Source: a virus. Taken from it: a stretch of DNA of 37,688 bases. Below the pieces are notes generated by a model, which worked only from the letters and a program-made list of their open reading frames with translations, searched no databases and was not told the DNA's origin. Made by a program: the position numbers and the translations under genes. Where the stretch lies: IMG/VR virus record IMGVR_UViG_3300027467_000055, positions 1-37,688 of that record; one strand, given 5' to 3'. Of this stretch, positions 29,012 to 37,688 are shown in pieces (the stretch's first letter is position 1; every line of letters begins with the position of its first letter).

Positions 29012-29056
29012 GTGAAGAAACTGGCAACTGCAATCACCAGCGAGAAAAGTATATGA
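29012..29056 (+). CDS. 14-residue leader peptide upstream of primase
   Basis: GTG-started ORF coding VKKLATAITSEKSI, with AGGAG (29001-29005) six bases upstream. Its TGA overlaps the ATG of the primase gene (ATGA). The primase start itself has no convincing Shine-Dalgarno, so ribosomes probably reach it by translating this leader. The hairpin at 28967-28993 lies eight bases before the leader's ribosome-binding site. Confidence 0.55.
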   Translation: MKKLATAITSEKSI

Positions 29057-31551
29057 CAGCACCACAGACAGTGCAACCGCATCCTGCATCCATCGACGCC
29101 TACATCAGACACGGCTGGAGCCTTGTCCCGATTCCCGGTGGCACCAAGGGGCCGAGCACCCCGGGCTGGAACCTCAAAGAAAACGCACTCAAGGCTCAAG
29201 GCGATCTGCCTCCGGGCTTCGGCATCGGTCTGGCCCATGCGTACAGCGGCACAATGGCGCTGGACATCGACAACTGGACCATCACCACGAGCCTGCTGGC
29301 CGAGCACGGCATCGACCTGCAAGCCCTCTACGATGCACCCGATGCGGTGATCATCAACTCGGGCAAGCCCGGGCACGGCAAGCTGCTGTACGCCATGCCC
29401 TTCGGCGCTGCGCTGCCAAGCAAAAAGATTCTGCACAGCGGCATCACCGCCTACGAACTGCGCTGCGCCACGGTCAGCGGCCTCACGGTGCAGGACGTGC
29501 TGCCCCCTTCGATCCACCCCGAGACACGCCAGCCCTACCACTGGGCCGGTAAGGGTCACTGGACCCGCTTGCCGGTGATCCCACAGGCGATTCTGGACCT
29601 GTGGAACGGCATGCTGGCGCAGGACAAAGAGCGCACCATCGCCACGGACGGCACGATTGACGCCTCGTGGGAGGAGATCAGGCAGGCGCTGGAGTCGGTT
29701 CCCGCTGACTGCTCCCGCGACGAGTGGGTGTCCATCGGCATGGCCCTGCACTGGGCGGGCACCCAGACCAATCAGCTTGAGCAGGGCCTGCAACTGTGGA
29801 ACGAGTGGTCCTCCACCGCCCAGTTCAAGTACCCCGGTGAGCGGGAAATCCTGACGCAGTGGATGTCGTTCAAGCCGGACAAGGCCACCGCTGTCAAGTT
29901 GGGGACATTGTTTCACATTGCCCGCCAGCACGGATGGAGCCGCCCAATCCCCGATGCGTCCGAGTTGTTCAGCAAGATCGACATCCCGGTCATGGAGCCG
30001 TTGGACGTGATCGACGGGCTGCGCCCCAAGCCACCCGAGATGAACATGGACCTGTGGCCCGCCATCCTGCGCCAGCGATCCACCGAGATCAGCGAAAGCG
30101 TGGGCTGCGACCCTTTGGTCCCTTTGTTCGCTGGGTTGGCCGCTGTCTGCGGGGTGGTTGACGCCCGCATCCGACTCGAACTCATGCCGGGGTTCCGTGT
30201 GCCGCCAGTGCTGTGGCTCATGACTCTCGGTGACCCAGCGGACAAGAAATCCCCCGGCTCCCGGCCCATGCTGTCCCCGCTCAAGAACATCGAGGCCGAG
30301 GACCGGCCCCGGTACAGCAAGGAACTGCTGGACTGGGAGGGCAAGGAAGCGGCCTACGCCAGCGCCAAAAAAGCATTCCTCGAATTCTCAGCCAGCCCCG
30401 AGGCCATGCTGGGCGCAGATCAAGCCCCCAGTGTGCCCGAGATGCCCCCGCAGCCCGTGCCGCTCAAGATCACGGTCAGCGACATCACGAGTCAGAAGCT
30501 GGTGCGCCAAGCGGCCGACCGTCCCCGTGGCCTGCTGTGCCACCTCGACGAGATGAATTCATGGGTGCGCAAGCTGACGGACAAGACCAGCGGCGAGGAT
30601 CGGTCAGCGTGGGTGGTCAGCTACGAGTCAGAACACTACGAGATGGACCGGGTGGGTGCTGGGTCGATCTACTGCGAGAACTTGGCCGTCAGCATCTACG
30701 GCAACATCCAGCCCCAAGTGTTCAGGCAAAACCTGGCCTCTCTCGCAGCGGATGGCCTGTTGCAGCGATTTATACCAGCCGTGCTGCGCGGCAGCAAGAC
30801 CAAGCTGGGCCACCCGATCCCCGAGTACATGACCAGCGCGGCCGCATGGGAGAACACCCTGCGCCTGACCTTCGCGCTGCCGCCCCAGACCTACCACTTA
30901 TCCACAGAAGCATTCACAGCCTTCCGCGAGTTCCAAGCGTGGTACGAGCAGGCCAAGCAGGACGAGCGGGTGCTGGACAGCGGCACCGAGTACATGACGG
31001 CGTTTGGCAAGCTGGAGGGCTTGGCTGGCCGTCTGATCCTGCTGTTCCACATCATCGAGTCGCCGTTCGCCCCGCAGGTGCAGGCTGAGGTTGTCCACAG
31101 GGTCGTGAGCCTGATCCGTGGCTACGTGATCCCGGCCTACCGGTACTCGCTGGGCGAGGTGGGTGGTGCGATCACGAATGACTTCGACCAGTGGGTGATC
31201 GACCATGTGATCCAGATCAGCGGGGACACGCAGATGATCGACCTGCGCACCCTGAAGAAGTCAGCGCGGCGTCAGCTTGAGGGCAAGACCGACTGGCAGA
31301 AGGATCAGGCGGTCATGGACGCTATGCTGGTGCTGGAGCAGGCGGGCTGGGTGGTGCAGGTGGAGAGCGAACTGCACAAGAAGAAGGTCACATGGGCCAT
31401 CAACCCGAGTCTGCCCACCATGTTCAAGGCGTACCGCGAGAAGGTCATCAAGGCCAAGCAGCGCCACGCAGACTACATTTACCGCCACGCCTACGAGAAG
31501 GGCTACGAGCGCAAGCTGGTCAAGGGGTATGACCCTGACACAATGGAATGA
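29053..31551 (+). CDS. Primase-polymerase (AEP) with PriCT and DUF3987 helicase-like domain
   Basis: An 832-residue replication protein. Residues 13-170 are a bifunctional primase/polymerase domain: YIRHGWSLVPIPGGTKGP, the metal-binding MALDIDN (Asp71, Asp73), SGKPGHGKLLYA (His108) and YELRC. Residues about 205-295 form a PriCT-2-like domain (WEEIRQALESVPADCSRDEW, VSIGMALHWAG). Residues about 325-830 form a DUF3987 domain, a helicase-like ATPase; a divergent Walker A may be GDPADKKSP (393-401), and LLCHLDEM (Asp499, Glu500) is Walker B. It likely makes primers and unwinds the fork. It is transcribed opposite to the other replication genes and is probably translated from the upstream leader. 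Confidence 0.9.
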   Translation: MTAPQTVQPHPASIDAYIRHGWSLVPIPGGTKGPSTPGWNLKENALKAQGDLPPGFGIGLAHAYSGTMALDIDNWTITTSLLAEHGIDLQALYDAPDAVIINSGKPGHGKLLYAMPFGAALPSKKILHSGITAYELRCATVSGLTVQDVLPPSIHPETRQPYHWAGKGHWTRLPVIPQAILDLWNGMLAQDKERTIATDGTIDASWEEIRQALESVPADCSRDEWVSIGMALHWAGTQTNQLEQGLQLWNEWSSTAQFKYPGEREILTQWMSFKPDKATAVKLGTLFHIARQHGWSRPIPDASELFSKIDIPVMEPLDVIDGLRPKPPEMNMDLWPAILRQRSTEISESVGCDPLVPLFAGLAAVCGVVDARIRLELMPGFRVPPVLWLMTLGDPADKKSPGSRPMLSPLKNIEAEDRPRYSKELLDWEGKEAAYASAKKAFLEFSASPEAMLGADQAPSVPEMPPQPVPLKITVSDITSQKLVRQAADRPRGLLCHLDEMNSWVRKLTDKTSGEDRSAWVVSYESEHYEMDRVGAGSIYCENLAVSIYGNIQPQVFRQNLASLAADGLLQRFIPAVLRGSKTKLGHPIPEYMTSAAAWENTLRLTFALPPQTYHLSTEAFTAFREFQAWYEQAKQDERVLDSGTEYMTAFGKLEGLAGRLILLFHIIESPFAPQVQAEVVHRVVSLIRGYVIPAYRYSLGEVGGAITNDFDQWVIDHVIQISGDTQMIDLRTLKKSARRQLEGKTDWQKDQAVMDAMLVLEQAGWVVQVESELHKKKVTWAINPSLPTMFKAYREKVIKAKQRHADYIYRHAYEKGYERKLVKGYDPDTME

Positions 31552-32871: not shown

Positions 32872-33219
32872 TTAGTCAGCCTTGGTCTTCGGTCGCCCCC
32901 GGGGCCGCTTGAGGGCGCTGGCGGGCGGGGTCAGGGCCTCGAGCACGGGCGGCGCGAGGGCCTCGAGGGTGCCGAGCACGTCAAGCAACCGCACGGCGGC
33001 GGCACTGGGTGCCCGGGTGCCCGTGGTCCACTTGCGAAGGGTGAACACCGGCACCCCCAGCAACCCGGCGGCGCGGTTTTCGTCAAGCCCCCGGCGGGCC
33101 ACAAAGGCCCCGAGGGTGGCGGCAAAGGCCCCGGCGGGGGTCAGGGTGGCGGCGGGTGCCTCGGGGGCACTGGGGGCCGCATGGGCGGCGGTGGCGAGGG
33201 TATCGGGTGCGGTGTTCAT
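32872..33219 (-). CDS. HTH protein with AT-hook-like tail
   Basis: A 115-residue protein. After an Ala/Pro-rich N-terminus (MNTAPDTLATAAHAAPSAPE) comes a helix-turn-helix: FAATLGAFVARRGLDENRAA, then GLLGVPVFTLRKWTTGTRAP, the layout of XRE/Cro-like domains (the W-x-x-G-x-R-x-P ending is typical). The C-terminus ends LKRPRGRPKTKAD, close to the AT-hook PRGRPK. It is the best candidate DNA-binding regulator of the GC-rich cassette and perhaps of the ACCCA-N-TGGGT palindromes (inference). It lies just after a terminator and starts with the same ATGAACACCGCA codons as the gene at 35473. GAAGGA precedes the ATG. Confidence 0.85.
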   Translation of the reverse strand: MNTAPDTLATAAHAAPSAPEAPAATLTPAGAFAATLGAFVARRGLDENRAAGLLGVPVFTLRKWTTGTRAPSAAAVRLLDVLGTLEALAPPVLEALTPPASALKRPRGRPKTKAD

Positions 33220-35647: not shown

Positions 35648-35669
35648 ATCCTTCACGGTTACGGGTTAC
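35648..35669. repeat. Initiation-leader repeat, copy 3
   Basis: 22 bases identical to the other two copies (GTAACCCGTAACCGTGAAGG plus AT on the minus strand), after which the sequence diverges. It lies just upstream of the 46-residue membrane-protein gene. Confidence 0.9.
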
Positions 35670-35699: not shown

Positions 35700-35728
35700 A
35701 ATGTAACCCACTGGGTGCCCATTGTCAA
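35700..35728 (-). promoter_or_regulatory. Strong leftward promoter with embedded palindrome
   Basis: On the minus strand TTGACA (35728-35723) is a perfect -35, the spacer is exactly 17 bases, and TACATT (35705-35700) is the -10. The spacer contains ACCCAGTGGGT (35716-35706), a perfect palindrome directly abutting the -10. A protein bound there would block RNA polymerase. Confidence 0.75.
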
Positions 35729-35796
35729 CCCCCAGCATGAAAAAAATTGTAGGTGTTTTCCCTGACCCACTGGGTGCCCCTTTGGGGGTTGATCAT

Positions 35797-35820
35797 GGGG
35801 CGGTGACAAATGGCCCTTTT
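35797..35820. repeat. Inverted repeat, left element
   Basis: GGGGCGGTGACAAATGGCCC followed by TTTT. It matches, with small gaps, the reverse complement of 35899-35924. The two flank an AT-richer patch of about 80 bases. Confidence 0.75.
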
Positions 35821-35898
35821 GTCTCAGGGGGTCAGTTTTGAGAAAACCAGAAAATAAGTACCTTTTCAAAAGTCGTTAGAACAAGGCTTCCTGTGCGC

Positions 35899-35924
35899 GA
35901 AAGGGCCGATTGTCACCGCGCCCC
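35899..35924. repeat. Inverted repeat, right element
   Basis: GAAAGGGCCGATTGTCACCG followed by CGCCCC: an imperfect reverse complement of 35797-35820. Confidence 0.75.
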
Positions 35925-35960
35925 CGTGAACCCCTTTTCCTGACCCACTGGGTGCCCGGT

Positions 35961-36000
35961 TGCCCCGGTTTTCCCCCGTTTGCCCCGGTTTTCCCGGCCT
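35961..36000. repeat. 20-base tandem repeat
   Basis: TGCCCCGGTTTTCCC occurs at 35961 and 35981, with a 20-base period. It directly follows palindrome copy 3. Confidence 0.8.
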
Positions 36001-36082
36001 TTTCGGGTGATCCATTGACCCACTGGGGCACAAACCCCCGGTTTTCGGGGTTTCGGGCTGGGGACAACTGAAACGGGGGTTT

Positions 36083-36109
36083 GTCACCGGTGTCACCAGT
36101 GTCACCGGG
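36083..36109. repeat. 9-base triple repeat
   Basis: GTCACCGGT, GTCACCAGT and GTCACCGGG in direct succession. A further GTCACCGGTG lies near 36422 within the small-terminase gene. Confidence 0.8.
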
Positions 36110-36320
36110 TGCCACTGACCCACTGGGTGCGGTGCCTGATCCTGACCCACGGGGTGCCCGGGTGCGGGTGCCATCGCTTCCGGCGGCACCCGGCCGGGGT
36201 GCGCGGTGCCCGGGCGGCGCGGCGGCGCTGGGTTCGAGGGGGCGGGGGAGGGCCGGAGGCGGGTGGGTCGCTGGCAGGGCGGTATCACAAAACCCGTGAA
36301 AATTTTTTCAAAAATCAAAA

Positions 36321-36331
36321 ACCCAATGGGT
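36321..36331. promoter_or_regulatory. Seventh palindrome, upstream of terminase promoter
   Basis: ACCCAATGGGT, with the same arms as the six copies at 35704-36159 but central A. It lies 14 bases upstream of the -35 of the promoter at 36346, a typical position for an activator or a repressor. Confidence 0.55.
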
Positions 36332-36345
36332 CCACTTTCCCCACG

Positions 36346-36375
36346 TTGCACAGACTCAGCAAACCGCTGTACACT
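36346..36375 (+). promoter_or_regulatory. Rightward promoter for terminase operon
   Basis: TTGCAC (36346-36351), an 18-base spacer, TACACT (36370-36375), ten bases before the small-terminase ATG. That short distance implies a nearly leaderless mRNA if correct; an upstream start is possible. The -35 side shares GTTGCACAGAC with the minus strand of the switch at 28909-28919. Confidence 0.5.
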
Positions 36376-36385
36376 CCCACTCACT

Positions 36386-36949
36386 ATGGAACAAGGAAAC
36401 CCTCAGTTCGTAGGCACGGTTGTCACCGGTGAAACCCCACTCCCAAACTGGCTGTCGTGCCCAGACCCCAAGCCCCCACGGCCCACCAAGGCCGCGAGAG
36501 AACTGCTGCACCTCGAATATGAGCAAATCTTCGAGCGTGTCATCGAGGACATCTACCGGGGCCGCTCCCTGCAATCCCTGATCGAAGACGACCCGCGCAT
36601 CATCTCGTATGAGGATTTCCTGCGCTGGGTCAAGCGTGACCCCCAAAGGAACGAGCGGTTCAAGGAAGCGCAGGAGATGCGCACCGAGTTCCTTGCCGGG
36701 GAGATTCTTGAGATTGCCGATGGGGTGGAGGCGATTGACCCGTCATCGAGCGATACCGTCAACCGCGACAAGCTGCGCATCGACACGCGCAAGTGGCTCA
36801 TGAGCGCCCACAATCGCAAGCGGTACGGGGAAACGAAGCAGATTGAGGTGGGCGGGACGATCTCGATCACTGAGGCGTTGGCGCAGGCTCAGGCCCGGGT
36901 GATCGAAGCCGAGGTGGTCGATGTGACCCCGAGATTGGAGAATGACTGA
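36386..36949 (+). CDS. terS: Terminase small subunit
   Basis: A 187-residue protein upstream of the large terminase. Pro-rich N-terminus, then helices LLHLEYEQIFERVIEDIYRG, SLQSLIEDDPRIISYEDFLR, then RWVKRDPQRNERFKEAQEMR and a block TVNRDKLRIDTRKWLMSAHN with RKRYGETKQIEVGG. This is the Sf6/P22-style small-terminase pattern: an HTH-like N-terminal DNA-binding part and an oligomerisation helix. It recognises the packaging site, often within or near its own gene. ATG 36386 is the sensible start; the open frame back to 36206 reads repeats. Confidence 0.9.
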   Translation: MEQGNPQFVGTVVTGETPLPNWLSCPDPKPPRPTKAARELLHLEYEQIFERVIEDIYRGRSLQSLIEDDPRIISYEDFLRWVKRDPQRNERFKEAQEMRTEFLAGEILEIADGVEAIDPSSSDTVNRDKLRIDTRKWLMSAHNRKRYGETKQIEVGGTISITEALAQAQARVIEAEVVDVTPRLEND

Positions 36950-37038: not shown

Positions 37039-37688
37039 TGCAGAAGATGCGCTACTCGCCCGAGGAGGAGCAACTGCTGATGTCGCAGTTGTGGTCCCCG
37101 AGCATCAAGGACGACCCCGAGGCGTTCGTGCTGTTCGCGTTCCCGTGGGGGCAGAAGAACACCCCACTCGAACACTTCAAGGCACCCCGGGCATGGCAGC
37201 GCAGGACGCTGCGGCGCATACGGGACTTCATCAAGGAGAACCGGGGCAAGCTGACCGAGGGTGATCTGATTGATGCGCTGCGCAGGGCTGTCTCGTCCGG
37301 CCGGGGTGTCGGTAAGTCGGCCCTCGTGTCGTGGCTGATCCTGTGGATGCTGACAACCCGGATCGGGTCGTCAGTCATCGTGTCGGCCAACAGCGAGAAC
37401 CAGTTGCGCAAGGTGACGTGGGGTGAACTGACCAAATGGGTCACGATGGCGATCAACGCCCACTGGTGGGAACCCACGGCTACCTCGCTCAACCCCGCAG
37501 CGTGGCTCACCGAGTTGGTCGAGCGTGACCTCAAGAAAGGCACCCGGTACTGGGGTGCCGAAGGGAAACTGTGGAGCGAGGAGAACCCAGACGCCTACGC
37601 CGGTGTTCACAACATGGACGGCATGATGGTGATTTTCGACGAAGCCTCGGGTATCCCGGACAGCATCTGGTCCGTGGCTGCGGGCTTC
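37038..37688 (+). CDS. terL: Terminase large subunit, N-terminal part (ATPase domain)
   Basis: The first 217 codons of the large terminase, ending exactly on a codon at the window end and continuing at base 9 of the window. Walker A is SSGRGVGKSA (Lys93), then WLILWMLTTRIGSSVIVSAN with the NSENQLRKVTWGEL coupling region, and Walker B is MMVIFDEAS (Asp201, Glu202). It powers DNA translocation into the prohead. The start ATG overlaps the stop of the 29-residue ORF by one base. The joined protein is 513 aa, the usual length for the family. Confidence 0.95.
   Translation, partial: MQKMRYSPEEEQLLMSQLWSPSIKDDPEAFVLFAFPWGQKNTPLEHFKAPRAWQRRTLRRIRDFIKENRGKLTEGDLIDALRRAVSSGRGVGKSALVSWLILWMLTTRIGSSVIVSANSENQLRKVTWGELTKWVTMAINAHWWEPTATSLNPAAWLTELVERDLKKGTRYWGAEGKLWSEENPDAYAGVHNMDGMMVIFDEASGIPDSIWSVAAGF
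37681..37688. repeat. 8-base overlap of the two window ends
   Basis: CGGGCTTC equals bases 1-8. Merging the two copies keeps the terminase frame (AAGFFTEN across the join). Keeping both would add 8 bases and break the frame. This is an assembly overlap of a circular map, not a biological terminal repeat. Confidence 0.85.

Follow-up and report, generated by a model that had tools for sequence, protein, structure and literature searches.

In this study, we report an array of short palindromes in the gene-free region between the early and late genes of a virus genome, and consider it likely that these palindromes are the operators of an HTH protein encoded by the phage itself. From comparison of related sequences, this protein would repress the early promoter and would act on the late promoter in a manner dependent on the face of the DNA, probably as an activator.

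The window, by which is meant the whole 37,688-bp virus record that was analysed, has the same 8 bases (CGGGCTTC) at its two ends (positions 1-8 and 37681-37688). Because the ends share these bases and TerL is in frame across the join, the window probably represents a complete circular map. Early genes run leftward from approximately 35690 and late genes rightward from 36386, leaving 700 bp free of genes between them. A primase-polymerase gene (Prim-Pol, PriCT_2 and DUF3987; 29053-31551) lies on the plus strand, opposite to the surrounding early genes.

The exact dyad ACCCANTGGGT was found five times in the window (at 35706, 35765, 35943, 36118 and 36321) and never outside the divergent intergenic region, against an expectation of 0.04 copies per window from whole-window shuffles. 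Two further copies, ACCCACTGGGG and ACCCACGGGGT, differ from it by one mismatch, so that the array comprises five exact and two near copies between 35706 and 36331 (Table 1), with copy-to-copy spacings of 59, 178, 75, 100, 27 and 176 bp. The 16-mer TGACCCACTGGGTGCC, with up to three mismatches allowed, was found six times in the intergenic region (35704, 35763, 35941, 36016, 36116 and 36143) and once elsewhere in the window (13856, minus strand, three mismatches), against 0.8 expected. A preliminary description of this DNA had placed a palindrome array in a single gene-free region and had held that a dyad equally common throughout the genome would speak against its importance; the array was borne out, and the dyad proved to be confined to that region.

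Table 1. Coordinates of the features discussed, as positions in the window
Feature	Position	Strand	Remarks
Candidate ligand, 115-aa HTH protein	32872-33219	minus	early operon; C-terminal RGRPK (AT-hook-like) tail
Early promoter, TTGACA-N17-TACATT	35700-35728	minus	reads into early operon (genes below 35690)
Dyad copy 1	35706-35716		inside 17-nt spacer of early promoter, abutting -10
Dyad copy 2	35765-35775		distance to copy 1, 59 bp
Dyad-free element with terminal inverted repeat GGTGACAA...TTGTCACC	35797-35923		arms 35801-35819 and 35900-35918; conserved
Dyad copy 3	35943-35953		from exact-word count
Dyad copy 4, imperfect, ACCCACTGGGG	36018-36028		from mismatch scan
Dyad copy 5	36118-36128		from exact-word count
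Dyad copy 6, imperfect, ACCCACGGGGT	36145-36155		from mismatch scan
G-rich block GGGGGCGGGGGAGGGCC	36238-36254	plus	conserved in relatives
A/T tract abutting copy 7	36296-36320		conserved in relatives
Dyad copy 7, ACCCAATGGGT	36321-36331		5' of terS promoter; centre approximately -56 from inferred start
terS promoter	36346-36375	plus	-35 TTGCAC 36346-36351, 18-nt spacer, -10 TACACT 36370-36375
terS, Sf6-type terminase small subunit	36386-36949	plus	first late-operon gene; PF20901 (E=4.3e-20), phrog_1482

Relatives of the window were 80 IMG/VR loci found by a TerS search, and the dyad counts take in these loci together with the window. In the 1 kb preceding terS (63 kb in total) there were 320 exact dyads, and in the other 704 kb of the same loci there were 12, all of them at 1.05 to 1.6 kb from terS on its upstream side; these counts represent non-independent events, the relatives being related by descent and some contigs being near-identical. 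Individual relatives carry approximately 4 to 11 dyads, the 322 distinct sites have the consensus ACCC[A/G]N[T/C]GGGT, and many relatives have 58-60 bp between copies 1 and 2. The dyad sites persist in the relatives while their flanks change, and a set of relatives keeping the promoters without the palindromes, which had been named as a second ground for doubt, was not what the comparison revealed. The nearest described genome is that of phage DSL-LC05 (OR003940), a member of the proposed family 'Luchaoviridae' (PMC10611076), which resembles the window in gene order and carries the same array, located in diverged intergenic DNA. The main text of the DSL-LC05 paper makes no mention of palindromes or of a repressor (PMC10611076). 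Within an open library that covers a minority of subscription journals, no published description of the array was found, and a query of paper texts with the exact dyad returned unrelated papers only.

Copy 1 is located in the minus-strand spacer of the early promoter, directly against the -10, which agrees with the earlier placement of one copy within a promoter having a perfect TTGACA and 17-base spacing. The same minus-strand order, TTGACA followed by 5-7 nt, the dyad and then immediately a -10 of the TAnnnT type, was found in 39 of the 62 loci with enough DNA, while no spacer dyad was identified by the strict promoter rule in 23 of the 62; one locus (L029) has GACACT as its -10 instead of TAnnnT. 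The stretch between -35 and -10 is a classic position for a repressor, and it is because of its position between the promoter boxes that copy 1 is predicted to mediate repression. A leader word of the GTAACCCGTAACCGTGAAGGA type was also observed 5' of three early genes (minus strand, 5' ends at 35669, 35501 and 34556), and DSL-LC05 likewise has three copies of it.

At the other end of the array, copy 7 lies just upstream of the terminase promoter, as the preliminary description had also stated. Of 58 distinct upstream regions, 57 have a TAnnnT -10 that stops 9 or 10 nt short of the terS ATG, which would place the terS start approximately 3 nt before the ATG; the mRNA is probably leaderless, and a Shine-Dalgarno-like sequence precedes terS in 7 of the 58 regions. 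The terS -35 boxes are weak across the relatives. Relative to the predicted start, the centre of the terS-proximal dyad falls at -44 to -46, -54 to -56 or -64/-65, and rarely at -87 or -98, giving a phasing vector length of 0.92 at a period of 10.5 bp, a value reached by none of 10,000 random sets. The A/T tract holds its place beside copy 7 while the distance between dyad and promoter shifts by approximately 10 bp. As the dyad moves by whole and never by half helical turns, a contact with polymerase or a DNA loop on one face is indicated, and a regulator indifferent to the face of the helix would not yield such phasing at terS. The positions -45/-55/-65 are compatible with a phi29-type polymerase contact at the late promoter, short of proof.

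The candidate ligand matches Pfam HTH_31 below the cut-off of that family. Its AlphaFold model has a confident XRE-type core (pLDDT >95) and a low-confidence N-terminus, and the structure matches of this model were non-significant (best E 0.06). In a PDB profile search, MqsA was the best match of the HTH profile, at weak significance (E 0.025-0.07). In the helices of the 115-aa protein, residues T60, K63, W64, G67, R69 and P71 are invariant. All 34 loci that were found by TerS and extend more than 4.2 kb on the early side encode the protein, as do all contigs found through the promoter-dyad pattern described below that extend more than 3.6 kb; conversely, loci found via the HTH protein have the array wherever the sequence extends far enough. 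Co-occurrence of this kind inside one phage family partly reflects common descent. Covariation of residue 66 with the A/G beside the dyad centre was considered and rejected: once relatedness was corrected for, the raw correlation (r -0.66) dropped to -0.26, which is non-significant among 61 tests. Two loci, L174 and L175, have an identical HTH core and different base preferences beside the dyad centre.

A course of events that would fit these observations is as follows. The HTH protein would accumulate from the early operon, and its dimer would bind ACCC-[A/G]N[T/C]-GGGT. Bound to copy 1, between the -35 and -10 of a strong early promoter, it would block polymerase and so shut off the early operon, of which its own gene is part. 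Bound to copy 7 in helical register, it would act on polymerase from one DNA face, and the weak, putatively leaderless terS promoter would most likely be activated, leading to transcription of the late packaging and structural genes. Activation is preferred here because of the position and phasing of copy 7 and the weak -35 boxes, and repression by looping could take its place. The middle copies, irregular in number and spacing, may contribute cooperativity, looping or titration that sets the timing of the switch.

The pattern TTGACA-N5/6-ACCCANTGGGT-TAnAnT was found in 85 stretches of viral contigs and in three places among bacterial and archaeal genomes totalling 257 Gb, where approximately one match was expected by chance on our own estimate, so that at least one of the three may be a chance match. 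Four places lie outside the family, namely an integrase-bearing viral contig (L133) and the three genomic loci L237, L238 and L239. In L133, L238 and L239 the pattern is followed within 0.5 kb by an HTH gene whose core, T-x-x-K-W-x-x-G, is that of the candidate ligand; the L133 protein passes the Pfam MqsA model, that of L238 matches it weakly and that of L239 matches HTH_3, with Fic. Locus L237 has a ribbon-helix-helix gene in place of the HTH gene. A search of 500 kb of background, a narrow sample made up of the late halves of family loci and two outgroup phages, yielded no HTH protein of this profile.

Sister phages were also compared. The TerL of MW202483 (L240) is 67% identical, and this phage has neither an HTH protein of this profile nor an ACCC-N3-GGGT dyad; both are likewise absent from MW202898. 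In the corresponding region of MW202483 (28220-28580), the palindrome GTTTA-NN-TAAAC occurs six times, four of these within TGTTTA-NN-TAAACA, and a DnaA-type HTH protein is encoded beside the primase gene, in the slot held by the XRE protein in the family of the window. The word TGTTTACATAAACA is a candidate target of this DnaA-type protein. That a different palindrome occupies this location suggests an exchange of specificity as a unit among such switches, and we tentatively raise, as a rather unlikely possibility, that the region is modular in this lineage, its layout of an operator at the early promoter, an array, a phased late-promoter site and perhaps an embedded origin being kept while regulator and operator are exchanged as a matched pair.

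Between copies 2 and 3, in the relatives as in the window, lies a conserved element of approximately 125 bp with an AT-rich middle. Folded as RNA, the window copy forms a single long hairpin (z -8.3 versus shuffles). The RNA reading was rejected, the relatives being inconsistent (z from +0.5 to about -7); RNAalifold gave no consensus fold and Rfam no credible match for the element. It is more likely a DNA element than an RNA, possibly an origin or some other DNA element. Closer to terS, 22 IMG/VR contig ends fall within 1 kb of the gene, 13 of them at a distance of 85-160 bp on its upstream side and in or beside the G-rich block, a pile-up that may reflect sequencing drop-out or a packaging terminus.

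These features bear on two readings in which the palindromes do not serve transcription. If the dyads were the iterons of a replication initiator, the element bounded by GGTGACAA and TTGTCACC could be the unwinding region, and its strong conservation, freedom from dyads and AT-rich middle between flanking dyads, the clustering of the repeats in a gene-free region and the DnaA-type protein in the HTH slot of the sister phage would all fit. The copies are, however, irregular in number and spacing where iterons should be regular, two of them are locked to promoters, the primase-polymerase gene is located elsewhere, and GC skew, calculated in coarse 1.5-kb steps, makes no sharp turn here. For the iteron alternative offered in the preliminary description, positive support is limited to the conserved element, and we regard this alternative as improbable. 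That the dyads are packaging (pac) sites bound by TerS is suggested by the adjacency of the array to terS and by the G-rich block with its accumulated contig ends; these ends, however, lie in or beside DNA whose G-richness makes it difficult to sequence, the copy in the early-promoter spacer and the phasing would be left unexplained, and the sister phage MW202483 has a different palindrome despite its similar TerL. A pac function is accordingly considered very unlikely.

Two other readings keep a regulatory role for the dyads and differ in the protein or in its action. The HTH protein might be purely a repressor of both the early and the terS promoters, serving immunity or silencing, with copies 1-2 looped to copy 7 and the phasing set by loop geometry. 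Helical phasing is also compatible with DNA looping, the DSL-LC05 homologue of the 115-aa protein is annotated as 'repressor protein C', and relatives of the MqsA and HigA types are repressors. Against this, copy 7, centred at -45 to -65, is well clear of the -35 on its upstream side and leaves the promoter itself uncovered, the weak -35 boxes of terS resemble those of activator-dependent promoters, and no integrase or partition genes are annotated in DSL-LC05, so that a prophage-like silent state (as judged from the integrase) is not evident; this reading is judged possible and rather doubtful. That a host transcription factor binds the dyads is conceivable, phage promoters being in general open to host factors. 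The promoter with its dyad was met only three times in the 257 Gb of bacterial and archaeal genomes, which argues against a widespread host regulon site, and array and HTH gene are jointly absent from the sister phages; a host factor therefore has very little probability. The reading that we favour remains control by the HTH protein of the phage, with early repression and face-dependent, probably activating, late action. Shared-site control of the early and terminase promoters by this HTH/AT-hook protein, as earlier proposed, is well supported by comparison, namely by conservation, promoter placement and HTH co-occurrence, the binding and the activity at each promoter being predicted; the earlier interpretation as a whole is partly supported. 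The HTH protein as ligand is further favoured by its resemblance to MqsA and the matching geometry of the two operators, by the three loci outside the family that pair promoter and dyad with an HTH gene, and by the absence of both HTH protein and dyad from MW202483.

No description of gene control in this phage group was found. The present analysis provides a candidate regulator-operator pair, with exact promoter positions, for an uncultured phage group with many metagenomic members. The 75 HTH cores and 322 distinct sites constitute natural variants for the study of how MqsA-type helices read DNA. Should the modular reading be true, a single intergenic region would couple early shut-off, late activation and replication, with a specificity that can be swapped.

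Among known regulators, MqsA may be of the same HTH type, to judge by a weak sequence similarity to its C-terminal HTH. The E. coli MqsA operator is ACCT(N)3AGGT (PMC4901048, PMC4894380); in its longer form, (T)AACCT-N3-AGGTT(A), it shares with ACCC-N3-GGGT the spacing and the ACC/GGT, whereas the fourth base of the half-site differs. MqsA has a zinc-binding N-terminal domain, whereas the 115-aa protein is devoid of cysteine and lacks an ordered domain at its N-terminus, and no mqsR-like toxin partner was found among the neighbouring early ORFs by family search. Moreover, MqsA is described as a repressor, while the HTH protein of the window is proposed to act also, and probably as an activator, at a late promoter.

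At OR, lambda CI represses PR and activates the divergent PRM from an upstream site. The HTH protein as proposed would be like CI in blocking one promoter and being able to activate its divergent neighbour; it differs in that CI has another operator and controls lysogeny, whereas the control proposed here is from early to late.

By position, with copy 1 in the early promoter spacer and copy 7 upstream of terS, the layout is of the type known from Bacillus phage phi29, in which one early-encoded protein, p4, likewise acts on both early (A2b/A2c) and late (A3) promoters. Four p4 sites lie between A2c and A3 (PMC11476376), and activation and repression through the same p4 residues are the subject of work cited there. 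The operator in the window differs in being an 11-bp dyad present in up to approximately 11 copies, one of them inside the early promoter spacer, and the presumed regulator is a small HTH protein of the XRE/MqsA type, set beside p4 by layout alone. To call the array an undescribed switch, as the preliminary description had done, was therefore too strong, since phi29 p4 already exemplifies a single regulator whose sites separate an early from a late promoter; the novelty appears to lie in the operator, the type of ligand and the phage group in which they occur.
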